Assembly (NCBI GenBank): GCA_001871015.1
Contig: MNUO01000117.1
Location: 1-15,084 of the forward strand
DNA length: 15,084 bases
Origin: Candidatus Desantisbacteria bacterium CG1_02_38_46
GTDB lineage: Bacteria; Desantisbacteria; UBA1551; UBA1559
Direction of reading: 5' to 3'
Shown: piece by piece, positions 1,829-12,820 of the stretch
Layout: every line of letters begins with the position of its first letter
How positions within the stretch are numbered: position 1 is the first letter of the stretch
Notes under the pieces: model-generated
The model's input: only the letters and a program-made list of their open reading frames with translations
Told to the model about the DNA's origin: nothing
Databases searched by the model: none
Program-made: the position numbers and the translations under genes

Positions 1829-2221
1829 ATGGAAATAAACGTAAGCAATTATCAAAAGAAAATAAAAATAAGTAAAAAATGGGTGAAGAAAGTCGCCATA
1901 TCGGTTCTTAAAAAAACAGGAATCAAGGGAGAATTGAGTATAATTCTGGTGGACAATAAGGACATTAAAAAGCTCAATCACAAATACCGCCATAAAAACC
2001 GTGCTACAGACGTCTTGTCGTTTTCCCAGGAAAAAGAAGAAAAAGTAGCCTGTCCCCTTTTTCTGCTTGGGGATGTTGTAATTTCGGTTGAAAGGGCAAA
2101 GTCTCAAGCCAGAGAATACGGCCATACTTTTAAGGACGAGATGCGCATACTTATTAGACACGGAATTCTACATTTATTAGGTTATACCCATAAACAGATG
2201 GGAAAAAATGAGGGAGATTAA
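1829..2221 (+). CDS. ybeY: Endoribonuclease YbeY, C-terminally shortened
   Basis: YbeY is a small zinc-dependent RNase involved in 16S rRNA 3'-end maturation and ribosome quality control. The family signature HGxLHLxGYxH is present at residues 111-121 (HGILHLLGYTH), giving the three zinc-binding histidines H111, H115 and H121; the usual D before the last His is T. The internal motif N-x-x-Y-R-x-x-x-x-x-T-D-V-L-S-F is also intact. The protein is 130 residues, shorter than the common ~150, and stops 9 residues after the last His; the usual C-terminal helix is missing. The stop lies exactly where a roughly 2-kb insert begins, which suggests the insert trimmed the gene's 3' end. Zinc ligands are retained, so it may still be active. 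It starts 2 nt after pgpH, as in a tight operon. Confidence 0.85.
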   Translation: MEINVSNYQKKIKISKKWVKKVAISVLKKTGIKGELSIILVDNKDIKKLNHKYRHKNRATDVLSFSQEKEEKVACPLFLLGDVVISVERAKSQAREYGHTFKDEMRILIRHGILHLLGYTHKQMGKNEGD

Positions 2222-2222
2222 A

Positions 2223-2288
2223 ATGGCGCTGGTCTTGCGAACCGTAGGTGAGTCCGCCTTGGGTGGAAAAACCAGAATCGACGACTCA
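2223..2288. other. tRNA-Ser-like fragment at left edge of the insert
   Basis: Bases 2223-2237 are identical to the D-loop/anticodon-stem stretch of the tRNA-Ser fragment at 4155-4169. The next bases (CGAACC) resemble a serine anticodon loop with CGA in place of UGA. Beyond about 2243 the similarity fades: I find no 5' acceptor arm, no T-arm with GGTTCGA and no 3' acceptor strand, so this is not a functional tRNA. The remaining 40 bases can form a short hairpin (TCCGCC/GGGTGGA near 2252-2267), but I do not recognise them. Confidence 0.4.
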
Positions 2289-2369
2289 AGTAAGTGCTAT
2301 GGAATTTTGTGGAAAAGTTTTATCGTTAAATATCTGCATTTATATAGAGCGTCATAAATAATTACGTAT

Positions 2370-2492
2370 TGTAGTGGTCGAGATTGCTCGATTTGTAGTG
2401 GTCGAGATTGCTCGACTTGTAGTGGTCGAGCTTGCTCGACTTCTGGCAGAGTAAACTCTGCACTTCCAGAGTGCCTACTTTTGGCCACTACA
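2370..2492. repeat. Tandem 24-bp hairpin repeat with closing inverted arm
   Basis: Three head-to-tail 24-bp units lie at 2370-2393, 2394-2417 and 2418-2441. Each begins TGTAGTGGTCGAG and contains the palindrome TCGAG-WTTG-CTCGA (4-base loop). They differ at only two positions. Two further hairpins follow: GCAGAGT/ACTCTGC at 2446-2461 and an overlapping alternative GCACT/AGTGC at 2460-2474. The block closes with CCACTACA at 2485-2492, the reverse complement of TGTAGTGG that opens each unit. The whole block could therefore fold as one large nested structure. It resembles REP/MITE-like intergenic elements. The 320-bp gene gap 2222-2541 is filled mainly by this repeat and the tRNA-like scrap. Confidence 0.85.
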
Positions 2493-2541
2493 GTTCGAAT
2501 GTGCAAATATTTAAGACGTTACATATAATAGGAGTTGTAAA

Positions 2542-3825
2542 ATGAGCACTTCACATAAAATCATTATCGGGGATTCAAGACAGATGAAGGAAGCGCCGAA
2601 TGAATCAGTCCATCTTATTATTACTTCTCCGCCGTACTGGCAATTAAAGGATTATGGAAATGGGAAACAGATAGGCTTCAACGATACCTATGAAGAATAC
2701 ATTAATAATCTTAATTTAGTGTGGAATGAGTGCCACAGGATTTTACATAAGGGTTGCCGATTATGTATTAACATTGGCGATCAATTTGCCCGCTCAGTTT
2801 ATTATGGGAGATACAAAATTATTCCGATAAGAACAGAAATAATAAAGTTCTGTGAGAGTGCGAGTTTTGATTATATGGGAGCAATAATCTGGCAAAAGGT
2901 TACCACCTGCCATACAACGGGTGGAGCAACAGTGATGGGTTCTTTTCCGTATCCGAGAAGTGGAATTATTAAACTTGATTATGAGTTTATTTTGATTTTT
3001 AAAAAATATGGAGATTCTCCTAAGGTAAGTAAAGAAATCAAAGAACAATCAAAATTGACCCAAGAAGAATGGAATAAATATTTTACCGGACACTGGAATT
3101 TCCCAGGTGAAAAGCAGAATAAACATTTGGCAATGTTTCCTGAGGAATTGCCGAAGCGTCTTATTAAAATGTTCAGTTTCGTTGGAGATACAGTGCTTGA
3201 CCCATTTCTCGGAAGCGGAACAACTTCTTTGGCCGCTAAAAGTCTAAAGAGGAATTCTATTGGATATGAAATAAGTGAAGAGTTTTTGCCAATTATAAAG
3301 GAAAAAGTGGAAACAAAACAAAAAACTCTTTTTCAGGATATAAATATTGAAATAATCAAACAAGAAAAGTCATGGATAGATTTTAGTGAAGAAATTAAAA
3401 AACTACCTTATATTTTCAATGACCCGATAAAATTTGACAAAAAAATTGACCCCAGAAAATTGAGGTTTGGTTCAAAGATAGATAATTCTCATTACGAAAA
3501 AGAAAAATATCACAAGGTAAAAGAAATAATTTCTCCAGAGATATTGATTTTAGATGATGGGCTAAAAATCCGGTTATTGGGTGTTAAGGAGAAACCAGAA
3601 AAAACCGAAGAAGCGATTCATTTTTTAGAAGAAAAAACCCGTGGACAAAAGGTATTTTTAAAATTTGATAATAAAAAGTATGATGAAAGCAATAATTTGC
3701 TTTGTTATCTTTATCTATGGAATAAAACTTTTTTAAACGCACATCTAATCAAAAATGGTCTGGCTTATGCAGACAATACTTTTGATTACAAATTATGGAC
3801 AATTGCAAAAGATTTTGGGTGTTAA
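2542..3825 (+). CDS. Type II DNA methyltransferase (m4C-type, beta class) fused to an SNase-like domain, C-terminus disrupted
   Basis: Site-specific DNA methyltransferase of 427 residues. The catalytic motif TSPPYW (28-33) precedes the AdoMet-binding motif DPFLGSGTT (220-228), the order of the beta class. SPPY rather than DPPY is typical of N4-cytosine methylation. The overall text (GFNDTYEEY, FTGHWNFPGEKQ) resembles enzymes paired with MjaI-like nucleases, which recognise CTAG; specificity here is inference. Residues about 307-415 look like a staphylococcal-nuclease fold (ILDDGLKIRLLGV, then GQKVFLKFD and LIKNGLA), but the usual second catalytic Arg before the A/C-Y-x-Y segment is absent (SNNLLCYLYL), so it may be a DNA-binding relic. 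The last residues (LWTIAKDFGC) seem to be out-of-frame endonuclease sequence, implying a 3' deletion. The RBS GGAG lies 7 nt before the ATG. It protects host DNA in an R-M system. Confidence 0.82.
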   Translation: MSTSHKIIIGDSRQMKEAPNESVHLIITSPPYWQLKDYGNGKQIGFNDTYEEYINNLNLVWNECHRILHKGCRLCINIGDQFARSVYYGRYKIIPIRTEIIKFCESASFDYMGAIIWQKVTTCHTTGGATVMGSFPYPRSGIIKLDYEFILIFKKYGDSPKVSKEIKEQSKLTQEEWNKYFTGHWNFPGEKQNKHLAMFPEELPKRLIKMFSFVGDTVLDPFLGSGTTSLAAKSLKRNSIGYEISEEFLPIIKEKVETKQKTLFQDINIEIIKQEKSWIDFSEEIKKLPYIFNDPIKFDKKIDPRKLRFGSKIDNSHYEKEKYHKVKEIISPEILILDDGLKIRLLGVKEKPEKTEEAIHFLEEKTRGQKVFLKFDNKKYDESNNLLCYLYLWNKTFLNAHLIKNGLAYADNTFDYKLWTIAKDFGC

Positions 3826-4114
3826 AGTAGAACCAGCACCTGATGAATGGGATAGAGGGTATAATGTAGATTTTTTTATCAAGGTGAAAGACAAATATAT
3901 CGGACTTCAGATTAAACCAGCGGGGCATGCTTACATCACACAAATTATTAATGAGTTAAAATTTCAGAAAAATACACACGAAAAATTTACTGCCAAATAT
4001 GGTGGTAAAATCTTCTATATAATTTCAGTCAAAGAAGGGAAAAATAAAATTATTCACAATTCTGAAACTATTGAAGAAATTAAAAAAGAAATTGAAAGAT
4101 TAAGCAAAGTATGA
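3755..4114 (+). pseudogene. 3' remnant of an MjaI-like type II restriction endonuclease
   Basis: The frame at 3755-4114 (119 codons) overlaps the methyltransferase end by 71 bases in another frame. From about codon 17 it reads like the C-terminal catalytic part of MjaI-family endonucleases: LQKILGVKVEPAPDEWDRG, then NVDFFIKV, then YIGLQIKP. The D...QIK arrangement fits a PD-(D/E)XK-type active site with Q in the acidic position. Family enzymes I recall are considerably longer, so the N-terminal portion is missing. The first 16 codons are only the methyltransferase gene read out of frame, and there is no RBS at the ATG. The simplest reading is a deletion that fused the methyltransferase 3' end to the middle of the endonuclease, around 3785-3805. 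It probably no longer cuts DNA, leaving an orphan methyltransferase. Family assignment is from memory of motifs. Confidence 0.62.
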
Positions 4115-4133
4115 TTCGTTAAATCAAATATTC

Positions 4134-4187
4134 GGAGAGGTGGCCGAGTGGCTGATGGCGCTGGTCTTGAAAACCAGTATTCAGCCA
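4134..4187 (+). tRNA. tRNA-Ser(UGA), 5' fragment only (pseudo-tRNA)
   Basis: The sequence begins with the serine acceptor strand GGAGAGG (4134-4140), then TG, and a D-stem GCC/GGC (4143-4145 with 4157-4159). A perfect 5-bp anticodon stem follows, CTGGT/ACCAG (4161-4165 with 4173-4177), enclosing the loop CTTGAAA, so the anticodon is TGA. It continues into the first strand of a long variable arm (TATTCAGCC). After about 4187 the expected second strand of the variable arm, the T-arm and the 3' acceptor strand CCTCTCC are all absent; the sequence runs straight into the ribosome-binding site of dagK. It therefore cannot make a normal tRNA by itself. Its abrupt end coincides with the right edge of the inserted module. 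Confidence 0.85.
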
Positions 4188-4200
4188 ATAGAGGAAGAGC

Positions 4201-4911
4201 ATGAACGGAAAAAGAACCATGCGGGACAGTTTTGATGCTGCTATCAGAGGGTTAGTAGAAGTATTGCAGACTCAGAGGAATATGAAATTTCACTTCCTTG
4301 CAGCAATCGCGATACTTATTATAAGTCTATTCCTCAATTTGACCAAAATTGAATTAATTGTGCTGGCGTTTGCAATAGTACTGGTTTTGATTACAGAGAT
4401 CATTAATACAATTGTAGAATTTATTACTGACCTTTTCTCTCCTGAATTTAGTGATATAGCTGGTATGGTAAAAGACATATCTGCAGGGGCAGTTTTGCTT
4501 TCAGCTATAAATGCCGCAGTCACCGGTTATCTTCTTTTTTTTACACGACTCATCCCGAAATTTCCCACAATAGTATTCAAGGTGCAGCAGGCTCCACCAC
4601 ACCTTACTTTTATAGCAATTGTTTTAGTAGTATTTCTTGTGCTTATTGCCAAAGCGCGCGCCTACCACAGTGGTAAATTATCATTTCTTCGTGGCGGAAT
4701 GCCCAGTGGTCATTCTGCAGTGGCATTTGCCTGCCTGGCTGTGGTAGTTTTTATGTCCGGGGATTTATTGATTTCAACTTTAACTTTCTTCTTGAGTTTT
4801 TTAGTTAGTTTGAGCAGAATAAGAGAAAAAGTCCACAATGTGAAGGAAGTAGTTGTCGGGGCAGTACTGGGTTTTTTGGTTACAATTTCCATATTCCAGT
4901 TATTCAGTTAA
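4201..4911 (+). CDS. Fused diacylglycerol/undecaprenol kinase (DagK) - PAP2-like phosphatase
   Basis: Integral membrane protein of 236 residues with two domains. Residues 1-115 are prokaryotic DagK: an amphipathic N-terminus (MRDSFDAAIRGLVEVLQ), E-I-I-N-T-I-V-E-F at about 67-75, and the KDISAGAVLLSA helix with its conserved D and A. This family phosphorylates diacylglycerol or undecaprenol with ATP. Residues about 120-236 resemble a PAP2 (type 2 phosphatidic acid phosphatase) domain: motif 2 PSGHSA at 168-173, then S-R-x5-H near 204-212. Motif 1 (K-x6-R-P) is not visible, and the closing D of motif 3 is E (HNVKE), so catalysis is uncertain. The pairing suggests recycling of a lipid carrier or phospholipid by opposing kinase and phosphatase steps. 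The start is set by GAGGAAGAG just upstream. It normally follows ybeY, but a 2-kb insert intervenes. Confidence 0.82.
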   Translation: MNGKRTMRDSFDAAIRGLVEVLQTQRNMKFHFLAAIAILIISLFLNLTKIELIVLAFAIVLVLITEIINTIVEFITDLFSPEFSDIAGMVKDISAGAVLLSAINAAVTGYLLFFTRLIPKFPTIVFKVQQAPPHLTFIAIVLVVFLVLIAKARAYHSGKLSFLRGGMPSGHSAVAFACLAVVVFMSGDLLISTLTFFLSFLVSLSRIREKVHNVKEVVVGAVLGFLVTISIFQLFS

Positions 4912-5888: not shown

Positions 5889-6695
5889 ATGTTATACAAA
5901 GTGAGGGCAATTGTTTTAGGAGGAAAGGATATTGGCGAGGCAGATAAGCTTATGACATTATACTCAGAGGAAAGAGGTAAGATAAAGGCGATTGCAAAGG
6001 GTGTCCGCAAAACCAGGAGCAAATTTGGTTCAAGTTTAGAGCTCTTTACGCTCTCAAGTTTGTTGATATATTCTAAAAATAATTCAAGCAGGCAATCGTA
6101 CCCTCATGCACCCACTTTAGATATCATAAGCGATGCTCAAATTCAGAATTCGTTTAGAAATCTGCGGGAAAACCTTGTTGAATTTGCTTATGGGAATTTT
6201 TTAGTCGAGTTAGTAAACAGGATGACTGGCGAGGAAGAGGATGATGGACACAGAATATTTCATTTGTTAAGAGAGTTCCTGAGCTCTGGCAGAGAGCTAA
6301 AGAATACCAATGTTTTAATTTACGGGTTTACCCTGCGCTTTTTTAATATTCTTGGATATAATCCCCAGATTGAGAAATGTGTCCTCTGCTCAAATGAAAT
6401 AAAGGTGGGGAAAGGATATAATTTTAGTGTCAATCAGGGAGGAATTCTCTGTAATAATTGTAAAAATGGAAAGACGGGCGTACTACCTGTTTCAGCTTCT
6501 TCTTTACAATATCTTAGGCAATTGATGAGAATAGAGCCGCGCTCCCTTAGAAATTTAAGAATCTCACTATATTGCGAGAGGGAATTAGAAGACATTGTGC
6601 AGGATTATCTCAACTTTTATCTTGAAAGAGACATGGAATCACTTTCTTTCCTATCTCAGGTGTCAGGTCTTGACAAATCAGGACTAAAGTCCTGA
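5889..6695 (+). CDS. recO: DNA repair protein RecO
   Basis: RecO anneals single strands and, with RecR/RecF, loads RecA onto SSB-coated DNA. The N-terminal OB-fold is evident (YKVRAIVLGGKDIGEADKL-MTLYSEERGKIKAIAKGVRK, residues 3-42). A C-terminal four-cysteine zinc site follows with C164-x2-C167 and C188-x2-C191. Length is 268 residues, close to the usual 240-270. It begins 1 nt after the stop of the CNNM gene, so it is the last member of the pgpH-ybeY-dagK-CNNM operon. The last 12 residues (from about 257, SGLDKSGLKS) are encoded by a palindromic repeat that starts at 6658, and the stop codon lies inside its inner hairpin. The natural C-terminus was probably FLSQV or slightly longer, so the tail is likely unstructured and harmless. 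Confidence 0.9.
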   Translation: MLYKVRAIVLGGKDIGEADKLMTLYSEERGKIKAIAKGVRKTRSKFGSSLELFTLSSLLIYSKNNSSRQSYPHAPTLDIISDAQIQNSFRNLRENLVEFAYGNFLVELVNRMTGEEEDDGHRIFHLLREFLSSGRELKNTNVLIYGFTLRFFNILGYNPQIEKCVLCSNEIKVGKGYNFSVNQGGILCNNCKNGKTGVLPVSASSLQYLRQLMRIEPRSLRNLRISLYCERELEDIVQDYLNFYLERDMESLSFLSQVSGLDKSGLKS

Positions 6696-6719
6696 GTTAC
6701 ATGTCAAGACCTGACACCT
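6658..6719. repeat. Palindromic mini-element, copy 1 (between recO and xylB)
   Basis: The 18-bp perfect inverted arms AGGTGTCAGGTCTTGACA (6658-6675) and its complement (6702-6719) surround an inner hairpin TCAGGACT-AA-AGTCCTGA (6678-6695). The element supplies the recO stop codon and ends 5 bases before the xylB ribosome-binding site. It lacks a following T-run, so it is not a standard intrinsic terminator. In RNA it would form a two-tier stem that could stop decay or attenuate read-through into xylB. A near-identical copy in the opposite orientation lies at 8238-8308. Confidence 0.92.
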
Positions 6720-6733
6720 CCCATGGAGGTCCG

Positions 6734-8260
6734 ATGCCGTATTTAATGGGTATTGATATAGGAACTACCAGTGCAAGAGCAATTATTATTGATGAAAGTG
6801 GAAAATTGGTTGGTGCGGGAGTTAGTGAATACCCACTTTATCATCCCCAACCTCTGTTCGTGGAACAGGAGCCTCTGGACTGGTGGGAAGGCACAAAGAA
6901 AGCCATTGGTGAGGCATTGAAAAATGCCAATGTCCAGTCCCATGAGATTGGCGGAATAGGTATATCCGGTCAGATGCACAGTCTTGTTCTTCTTGATAAT
7001 CATTGCAAAGTTTTGAGAAGAAGTATCCTGTGGTGCGACCAGAGGACGGTGAAACAATGTGAATATATTATGCGCAAAACTAAGCAGACTCTTGTCCAAT
7101 CAACAGGTAATCCGGCGCTCACCGGTTTTACCCTCCCGAAAATTATATGGGTTATGCAGGAAGAGCCAGAGATTTATGAAAAAGTTCATAAAATGCTTTT
7201 ACCAAAAGATTATATCCGATTCAAGTTGACAGGGGAATTTGCAACCGAGGTCTCAGATGCGTCAGGAACTCTTATGCTCGATGTGAAGAAGAGAAAATGG
7301 TCTGAGGAAATACTCTCTGCTTTCAGGATAAAAAAAGAAAATTTGCCAGTGGTTTATGAATCACCGCAGATTACTGGAAAAATAACATCAGAATCTGCAA
7401 AAGAAACAGGTTTAAAAGAAGGAATTCCTGTTGTGGGCGGCGCAGGTGACCAGGCAGCAGGTGGAGTTGGAAACGGAATAATCAAAGAAGGTTTGCTTTC
7501 TTCCACTATCGGTACATCAGGAGTTGTTTTTGCATCCCTTGACGATGTCAAAGTTGATCCTTTTTTGAGAACTCATACTTTCTGCCATGCTATACCGGGA
7601 AAATGGCATATAATGGGTGTAATGCTATGCGCAGGTGTGAGTCTTAAATGGTTCAGGGATACTTTTGGGATGGAAGAGGTGAATGTTGGTAAAATGACCG
7701 GGCAGGATCCATATGAGATTTTGACCATGGAAGCATCTCAGGTTAAACCCTGCTCTGAAGGACTTATCTTTCTTCCCTATCTGATGGGTGAGCGTACTCC
7801 ATATCCTGACCCTTATGCAAAGGGTGTATTTTTTGGATTGACACCCCGTCATACAAAAGCACATTTAGTTCGTGCTGTGATGGAAGGAGTGGCATTTGGT
7901 TTGAGGGATTCTCTTGAAATTATCAAGAAACTTCGTATAAAAATTGAAGAAATCAGGGCATCTGGTGGAGGAGCCAGAAGCACATTGTGGCGTCAGATTC
8001 AGGCGGACATTAACAATGCTCCAATGTCAACAATTAGCATAAAAGAAGGCCCGGCATTTGGTGTTGCATTGCTTGCAGGGGTGGGTACTGGTATTTATAA
8101 AAATGTGGAGGAAGCATGTGATAACACAATTCATGTGACTTCTGTGACTGAGCCGATAAAAGAAAATGTTAAAAGGTATGAAGAATATTACAGAATTTAT
8201 CGCTCACTTTACCAGAAGTTAAAAGATGAATTTGTTCAGGTGTCAGGTCTTGACATGTAA
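6734..8260 (+). CDS. xylB: Xylulokinase-type FGGY carbohydrate kinase
   Basis: A 508-residue cytosolic sugar kinase that would phosphorylate D-xylulose (or a related ketose) with ATP, feeding the pentose phosphate pathway. The N-terminal FGGY half has the phosphate-binding loop GIDIGTTSAR (residues 5-14), the substrate loop ISGQMHSLVLLD and WCDQRT. The central GGAGDQAAGGVGNG carries the catalytic D239, and the second half shows STIGTSGVV and the FGGY-type GGGARSTLWRQIQADI. The QMHS motif favours xylulokinase over glycerol kinase or gluconokinase. I chose ATG 6734 (MPYLMGIDIG), with GGAGG at 6725-6729; the longer in-frame start at 6701 only translates a palindromic repeat (MSRPDTS). The final 7 residues (QVSGLDM) come from a second repeat copy. 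No xylose isomerase or transporter is nearby, so the substrate supply is unknown. Confidence 0.87.
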   Translation: MPYLMGIDIGTTSARAIIIDESGKLVGAGVSEYPLYHPQPLFVEQEPLDWWEGTKKAIGEALKNANVQSHEIGGIGISGQMHSLVLLDNHCKVLRRSILWCDQRTVKQCEYIMRKTKQTLVQSTGNPALTGFTLPKIIWVMQEEPEIYEKVHKMLLPKDYIRFKLTGEFATEVSDASGTLMLDVKKRKWSEEILSAFRIKKENLPVVYESPQITGKITSESAKETGLKEGIPVVGGAGDQAAGGVGNGIIKEGLLSSTIGTSGVVFASLDDVKVDPFLRTHTFCHAIPGKWHIMGVMLCAGVSLKWFRDTFGMEEVNVGKMTGQDPYEILTMEASQVKPCSEGLIFLPYLMGERTPYPDPYAKGVFFGLTPRHTKAHLVRAVMEGVAFGLRDSLEIIKKLRIKIEEIRASGGGARSTLWRQIQADINNAPMSTISIKEGPAFGVALLAGVGTGIYKNVEEACDNTIHVTSVTEPIKENVKRYEEYYRIYRSLYQKLKDEFVQVSGLDM

Positions 8261-8308
8261 CTCAGGACTTTAGTCCTGATATTTGTCATTTGTCAAGACC
8301 TGACACCT
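8238..8308. repeat. Palindromic mini-element, copy 2 (inverted relative to copy 1)
   Basis: The same 18-bp arms occur at 8238-8255 and 8291-8308, with the inner hairpin TCAGGACT-TT-AGTCCTGA at 8262-8279. Apart from 9 extra bases, this copy reads as the reverse complement of copy 1. The extra bases probably arose from slippage of the repeated ATTTGTC at 8281-8294. The element encodes the last residues and stop of xylB and ends 9 bp before the start of the next gene. Confidence 0.92.
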
Positions 8309-8316
8309 CCCTATTT

Positions 8317-12734: not shown

Positions 12735-12820
12735 CTGAAATTTTGCCATAAGGAAAAGGCTTAAATAAGTCTAATAGAATCAAAGGTTTTTGAAGACCTC
12801 TAAGAAAAAAGTAAGAAAAC

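Follow-up and report, generated by a model that had tools for sequence, protein, structure and literature searches.

The window analysed here is a stretch of 15,084 nt from contig MNUO01000117.1 of the Candidatus Desantisbacteria bacterium CG1_02_38_46 assembly (GCA_001871015.1), a MAG of 133 contigs that is 88% complete. Contigs of this assembly carry C-numbers below, and G001 and G046 denote other genomes. On the plus strand, the window holds ybeY (1829..2221; Pfam PF02130, E=1.3e-35), the 3' end of which is cut short by an insertion. The TAA at 2219-2221 lies at the junction, and compared with its relatives the encoded YbeY lacks the usual last ~10 residues. The host sequence resumes after the insert with a dagK-PAP2 fusion gene on the same strand (4201..4911; PF01219, E=6.6e-29, and PF01569), and a TA dinucleotide is found on both flanks of the insert. 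The first-pass annotation of this DNA had held that ybeY and dagK are usually adjacent and that the host site is a protein operon, and it had suggested inspecting the junction in relatives that lack the insert. This comparison bore out both claims. In two distant relatives, which belong to the same domain only, the order 7TM-HD, ybeY, dagK-PAP2, and CNNM is that of the window and the junction is uninterrupted, and in G046 the ybeY stop and the dagK start are 5 nt apart. Since the operon order is kept in these relatives and the window ybeY ends early, the insert interrupts a conserved operon. Neither ybeY nor dagK had a match in G001, the only other genome of the order, and there is no close empty site for comparison.

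The insert is bounded by pieces of a tRNA gene. A 15-bp direct repeat, ATGGCGCTGGTCTTG, is present at 2223-2237 and 4155-4169; the copies are exact, as had been reported, and are 90% identical when extended to 21 nt. The right end of the insert (4134..4177, plus strand) is an exact 44-nt 5' half of tRNA-Ser(UGA), in agreement with the truncated tRNA-Ser(UGA) first noticed at this edge. The same 44 nt make up the corresponding part of the intact tRNA-Ser(TGA) gene on contig C95 of this genome and recur in the halves on C91 described below. Because of this 44-nt identity to a resident tRNA, the right piece is not a product of chance, and a chance repeat is ruled out. The preceding bases (4114..4133, plus strand) agree at 14/20 positions with the sequence that precedes the intact gene and represent tRNA-Ser upstream sequence carried along. 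At the left edge, the second core copy (2223..2237, plus strand) is a truncated tRNA-Ser 5' half that runs from the end of the D loop to the anticodon loop. The tRNA-Ser-like scrap seen here earlier is therefore real, and only its assignment to a CGA-like loop fails, as the loop reads CTTGCGA and does not fit tRNA-Ser(CGA). ARAGORN found no intact tRNA within the window. A group I intron in the anticodon loop was also considered and rejected, with no Rfam match in the window and the arrays scanned.

Between the tRNA pieces lie a methyltransferase gene and an endonuclease remnant, and Pfam and PADLOC support the original description of both. The former (2542..3825, plus strand) encodes an N6/N4 DNA methyltransferase with a C-terminal SNase domain (PF01555, E=7e-46; PF00565, E=1.5e-6; PADLOC PDLC03259, E=5e-191), a type that is spread over many phyla with identity of up to 85%. 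The latter (3755..4114, plus strand; PADLOC PDLC03450, E=1.3e-7) comprises the last ~107 of ~210 aa, and full-length homologues of ~210 aa are found in many relatives. DNA similarity to these relatives ends near 3793 and picks up ~350 bp further on in the relative. Therefore, an internal deletion with its junction at 3793..3794 (plus strand) removed the start of the endonuclease and fused the end of the methyltransferase to the second half of the endonuclease. Functional Type II restriction-modification (R-M) systems have an intact endonuclease beside the methyltransferase; in the window, ~100 N-terminal residues are deleted relative to the ~210-aa homologues. Owing to this deletion, the restriction half is very likely dead and the methyltransferase orphaned.

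Two more diverged copies of this R-M type are present in the genome, on C86 (L211, 258-1505) and C58 (L213, 1-1100). Neither adjoins a tRNA piece, and the C58 copy appears to retain a full-length endonuclease. Among 60 loci of R-M relatives scanned for tRNAs, three contained one, and in none did it adjoin the R-M genes. The R-M pair itself was rejected as the mobile unit, as relatives share DNA only from ~2536 to 4114 and no flanks. A separate feature of the window is a set of three 24-nt repeats, TTGTAGTGGTCGAGNTTGCTCGAC (2369..2442, plus strand). This palindromic repeat occurs genome-wide at ~80 places, dispersed as short tandems. Further downstream, near-identical REP-like hairpins (AGGTGTCAGGTCTTGACA...) at 6658-6720 and 8237-8309 flank an FGGY-kinase-like gene, and Rfam microRNA matches at these hairpins were dismissed as chance.

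A search of the genome with the tRNA half as query led to C91, where two identical tRNA-Ser 5' halves lie in tandem, 1744 bp apart. The repeated segment of half and head measures 144 nt and is 85% identical between the copies. On one strand, a zeta-toxin-like kinase gene lies ahead of the first unit, which consists of a tRNA-Ser 5' half, a noncoding head of ~100 nt, an ORF of unknown family, and an MNT pair, that is, a toxin-antitoxin-like (TA-like) pair of a nucleotidyltransferase and a small partner. The second unit follows the MNT pair with a tRNA-Ser 5' half, a head, and a NucS-like gene that is cut by a transposase insertion. CRISPR-like direct repeats (CRISPR-DR7) are also present on this contig (L025, 12513-13541). 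On C76, two 5' halves of a different tRNA gene, tRNA-Arg(CCU), lie in tandem, and each is followed by a head of the C91 type (78-79% identical to C91). The first C76 unit comprises the half, the head, a radical-SAM protein, a type III R-M fragment, and an MNT-HEPN pair, and the second comprises the second half, the second head, and a HEAT-repeat protein. The N-terminal part of the radical-SAM protein is presumably TcmP-like. The cargo of the arrays is largely TA, R-M or defence-like, and on both contigs repeated tRNA fragments separate variable cargo, as in additive flexible genomic islands.

All tRNA halves end 3-5 nt beyond the anticodon loop and then diverge, the pattern of tRNA islands with a crossover in that loop. 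Duplication affects the 5' halves only; the genome showed no orphan 3' half of tRNA-Ser, as expected for elements that carry the 5' half. The tandem tRNA-Ser 5' halves and the intact tRNA-Ser(UGA) are on different contigs (C91 and C95) that are not joined in the assembly. An intact tRNA-Arg(CCU) was not found in this 88%-complete assembly, and G001 has one.

The heads share a 31-nt motif, AAATAAGT-N7-AATCAA-N3-TTTTTGA. The genome has five exact copies, all oriented like the tRNA, and in four cases a tRNA half immediately precedes the motif. One exact copy (12763..12793, plus strand) has no tRNA half before it; a DUF6788 ORF and a DDE transposase follow ~110 bp downstream. At one mismatch or fewer, the motif gave one weak match in 144 other genomes, and the reversed control gave none. 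It was absent from the viral contigs and reference genomes searched, so only two genomes are known to date to have the cassette family. Repeated TTTCACG blocks in the head region resemble integrase arm sites and may serve as such.

Comparison with the array halves (CTTG|AAAACCAG) clarifies the left piece of the window, in which the 15-nt partial ASL is followed by a 30-nt insertion (2238..2267, plus strand) and then by AAAACCAG at 2268-2275, the normal end of the tRNA half in the C91 and C76 arrays. Together with the first ~22 nt of a head (AATCGACGACTCAAGTAAGTGC), this element forms a segment (2268..2297, plus strand) that is the best window match to both C91 heads, with 26/34 positions matched against a best of 19/34 on the other strand. 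Conservation in the window does not extend to the remainder of the head (AATCAANNNTTTTTGA). The head match spans only ~22 nt and, once the core is removed, its 17/22 equals the shuffle maximum of 17 and is near the chance ceiling. Because this match is short, membership of the window insert in the family rests mainly on position and the two tRNA pieces.

A similar cassette was found in G001. On C69 of that genome, GCGCTGGTCTTGAAA precedes a head of diverged sequence; next come an ORF for a lipoprotein-like product and a tRNA-Ser 5' half that is interrupted by ~100 nt in the D arm. The adjoining gene, which we take from its sequence to be lpxB, is not a tRNA gene. With a partial core on the left and a 5' half on the right, this is therefore a second genome with a cassette away from a tRNA gene.

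Candidate RNAs were observed near the tRNA halves of both genomes. In one type, a start that resembles the 5' end of tRNA-Ser leads into a hairpin and then into a conserved block, GGGTGGAAGAGTGGAAYGAC...ATGCAGAGCACCCAGGA; it lies just upstream of tRNA-Ser halves or within them. This element is present on C91 (L025, ~5160-5030, minus strand) and, in G001, on C35 (L110, ~1160-1060, minus strand) and C113 (L115, 3811-3926). The copies scanned (C91 and C113) had no Rfam match, and the element may be a novel structured RNA or a tRNA whose D loop carries an insertion. A similar block, GTAAGAACC-hairpin-GAACCTTGTTG, is present upstream of a tRNA-Arg(CCU) half on C76 (L112, 6134-6240) and upstream of the intact tRNA-Arg(CCU) of G001 on C115 (L205, 1372-1490).

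As first reported, the insert contains no integrase. None of the cassettes seen holds a tyrosine integrase of the non-Xer kind, and the PF00589 matches of the assembly are on other contigs. These tyrosine recombinases are XerC/D-like proteins, a trio on C15, and a decayed fragment, and none is tied to heads. The trio consists of three consecutive overlapping tyrosine recombinase genes near a nucleotidyltransferase gene (L111, 2018-5326) and is presumably of the recombinase-in-trio (RIT) kind. It was rejected as the cassette integrase, as no head or tRNA half was found beside it. No helper integrase was identified in the assembly, which, being 88% complete, may lack it.

Taken together, the insert probably belongs, and we say so with some reserve, to a family of mobile cassettes that are small (about 1-5 kb), lack an integrase, and attach at tRNA genes; such a family would be a rare variant of known tRNA islands. 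Each cassette would have a noncoding head, from one to a few same-direction genes, mostly for defence or TA functions, and, at the right end, a tRNA 5' half that extends to the anticodon stem. A tyrosine recombinase would be supplied in trans, with crossover in the 7-bp anticodon loop and the flanking stem serving as inverted core sites. The anticodon stem and 7-nt loop fit the layout of core sites and overlap of tyrosine recombinases (PMC8371274). The incoming 5' half would join the resident 3' half and restore the tRNA, and the old 5' half would stay upstream of the new cassette, so that repeated rounds would yield tandem units of 5' half, head, and cargo upstream of the tRNA. Of this scheme, the arrays, their common head, the two tRNA species, the intact tRNA-Ser, the displaced operon, and the endonuclease deletion were observed; the recombinase, the crossover, and the order of events are inferred.

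The window unit would then be a stretch of such an array, consisting of the end of one half, a head, the methyltransferase with the broken endonuclease, and the full next half. It may have been moved to the 3' end of ybeY, either through relaxed integration or through breakage followed by joining, and have decayed there. The ybeY target has no visible core, so simple site-specific integration at ybeY is not demonstrated. The first-pass annotation had proposed that the module was moved from a tRNA-Ser locus. An intact tRNA-Ser(UGA) in the genome, with its 14 of 20 upstream bases shared with the right half of the window, speaks for this proposal; it is not supported in that no R-M copy was found at the tRNA-Ser locus, and the C86 and C58 copies do not adjoin a tRNA piece. 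Nor is the insert a one-off, as tandem halves of tRNA-Ser and tRNA-Arg(CCU) are followed by the same head and by defence or TA cargo.

Other routes into the operon can be considered. A circular cassette could have been integrated directly by a relaxed tyrosine recombinase at a secondary site, provided that the ybeY-dagK site already held a short anticodon-stem-like sequence. Such an event would leave a core at either end and a right boundary that coincides with the end of the core, as is seen in the window and on G001 C69. However, a circle would bring only the loop and the right arm to the left junction, so the further matching bases, ATGGCGCTGGT, would need to have been in the ybeY operon already, and the genome has no lone core-like sequence elsewhere. 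We regard this route as unlikely. Somewhat less likely again is an illegitimate translocation, in which random breakage of a tRNA-Ser neighbourhood with the R-M pair was followed by joining into the operon and no cassette system existed. The two-base TA on either side of the insert is compatible with microhomology, and this R-M type is spread across phyla in the absence of tRNA context, but this route would leave unexplained why two tRNA genes have tandem halves with a common head and why the anatomy recurs in G001.

A former tRNA-Ser gene between ybeY and dagK, split by a cassette and later deprived of its 3' half, would account for the 5' half and some upstream DNA at the right edge. It is improbable, as the host genes are only 5 nt apart in a distant relative, tRNA-Ser(UGA) exists elsewhere (C95), and there is no 3' half near the site. 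An assembly artefact that joined a tRNA-Ser contig to the ybeY contig is conceivable in a MAG in 133 pieces, but is very improbable given that a single contig contains the whole insert along with the damaged end of ybeY and that an independent genome (G001) has the same anatomy.

The proposed cassettes share features with several known systems. Integrative elements that carry a 5' tRNA half are rare: in the Islander collection, 159 of 3919 tRNA-gene islands have a 5' tDNA fragment, and only four arrays of three or more were found, each member with its own integrase (PMC4383910). The pTN3-like archaeal elements also use the 5' tRNA half (PMC8371274). As in both, crossover would take place within the anticodon loop, the 5' half travels with the element, the tRNA would be restored, and tandem accretion is possible. 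Unlike Islander islands, each of which requires an integrase gene, the present cassettes are 1-5 kb and have none, and, unlike in Islander or pTN3-like elements, one head is common to two different tRNA genes. Additive flexible genomic islands of Methylophilaceae contain 20-bp tRNA-Lys repeats (PMC10872708). Serial insertion at one tRNA gene and recurring tRNA fragments between variable cargo are common to both; however, the Methylophilaceae repeats correspond to the final 20 bp of the tRNA, whereas here full 5' halves are followed by a conserved head.

CALIN are arrays of integron cassettes with no integrase (PMC11389934). They resemble the present arrays in their tandem same-direction cassettes, short cargo including TA and defence genes, and lack of a nearby integrase. 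In contrast, the site here is a tRNA 5' half rather than a recognised attC, and there is no attI or IntI; for attC, Rfam, applied without an attC model to the window, L025, and L099, named none. The cargo of the window resembles Type II R-M with a methyltransferase-SNase fusion (PADLOC PDLC03259/PDLC03450), with an identity of as much as 85% between its methyltransferase and copies in many phyla. Unlike other such systems, its endonuclease is truncated by the ~350-bp deletion and the copy is bounded by tRNA pieces.

No description of tandem integrase-less arrays with a head common to two tRNA species was found in the literature searched. The shared head and cores make the cassette idea testable in related metagenomes. 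If the cassettes are real, they would be missed by island finders that need an on-board integrase. A broader proposal, which we put forward only tentatively, is a cassette system based on tRNA genes, in which integrase-less defence cassettes with a common head use the tRNA 5' half as the recombination end. A helper recombinase would collect them in tandem upstream of several tRNA genes, from where they may be re-deposited in ordinary operons, and possibly the tRNA promoter drives the next cassette. Such cassettes, if real, would provide bacteria with a further route, besides integrons and defence islands, to stock defence and TA genes.
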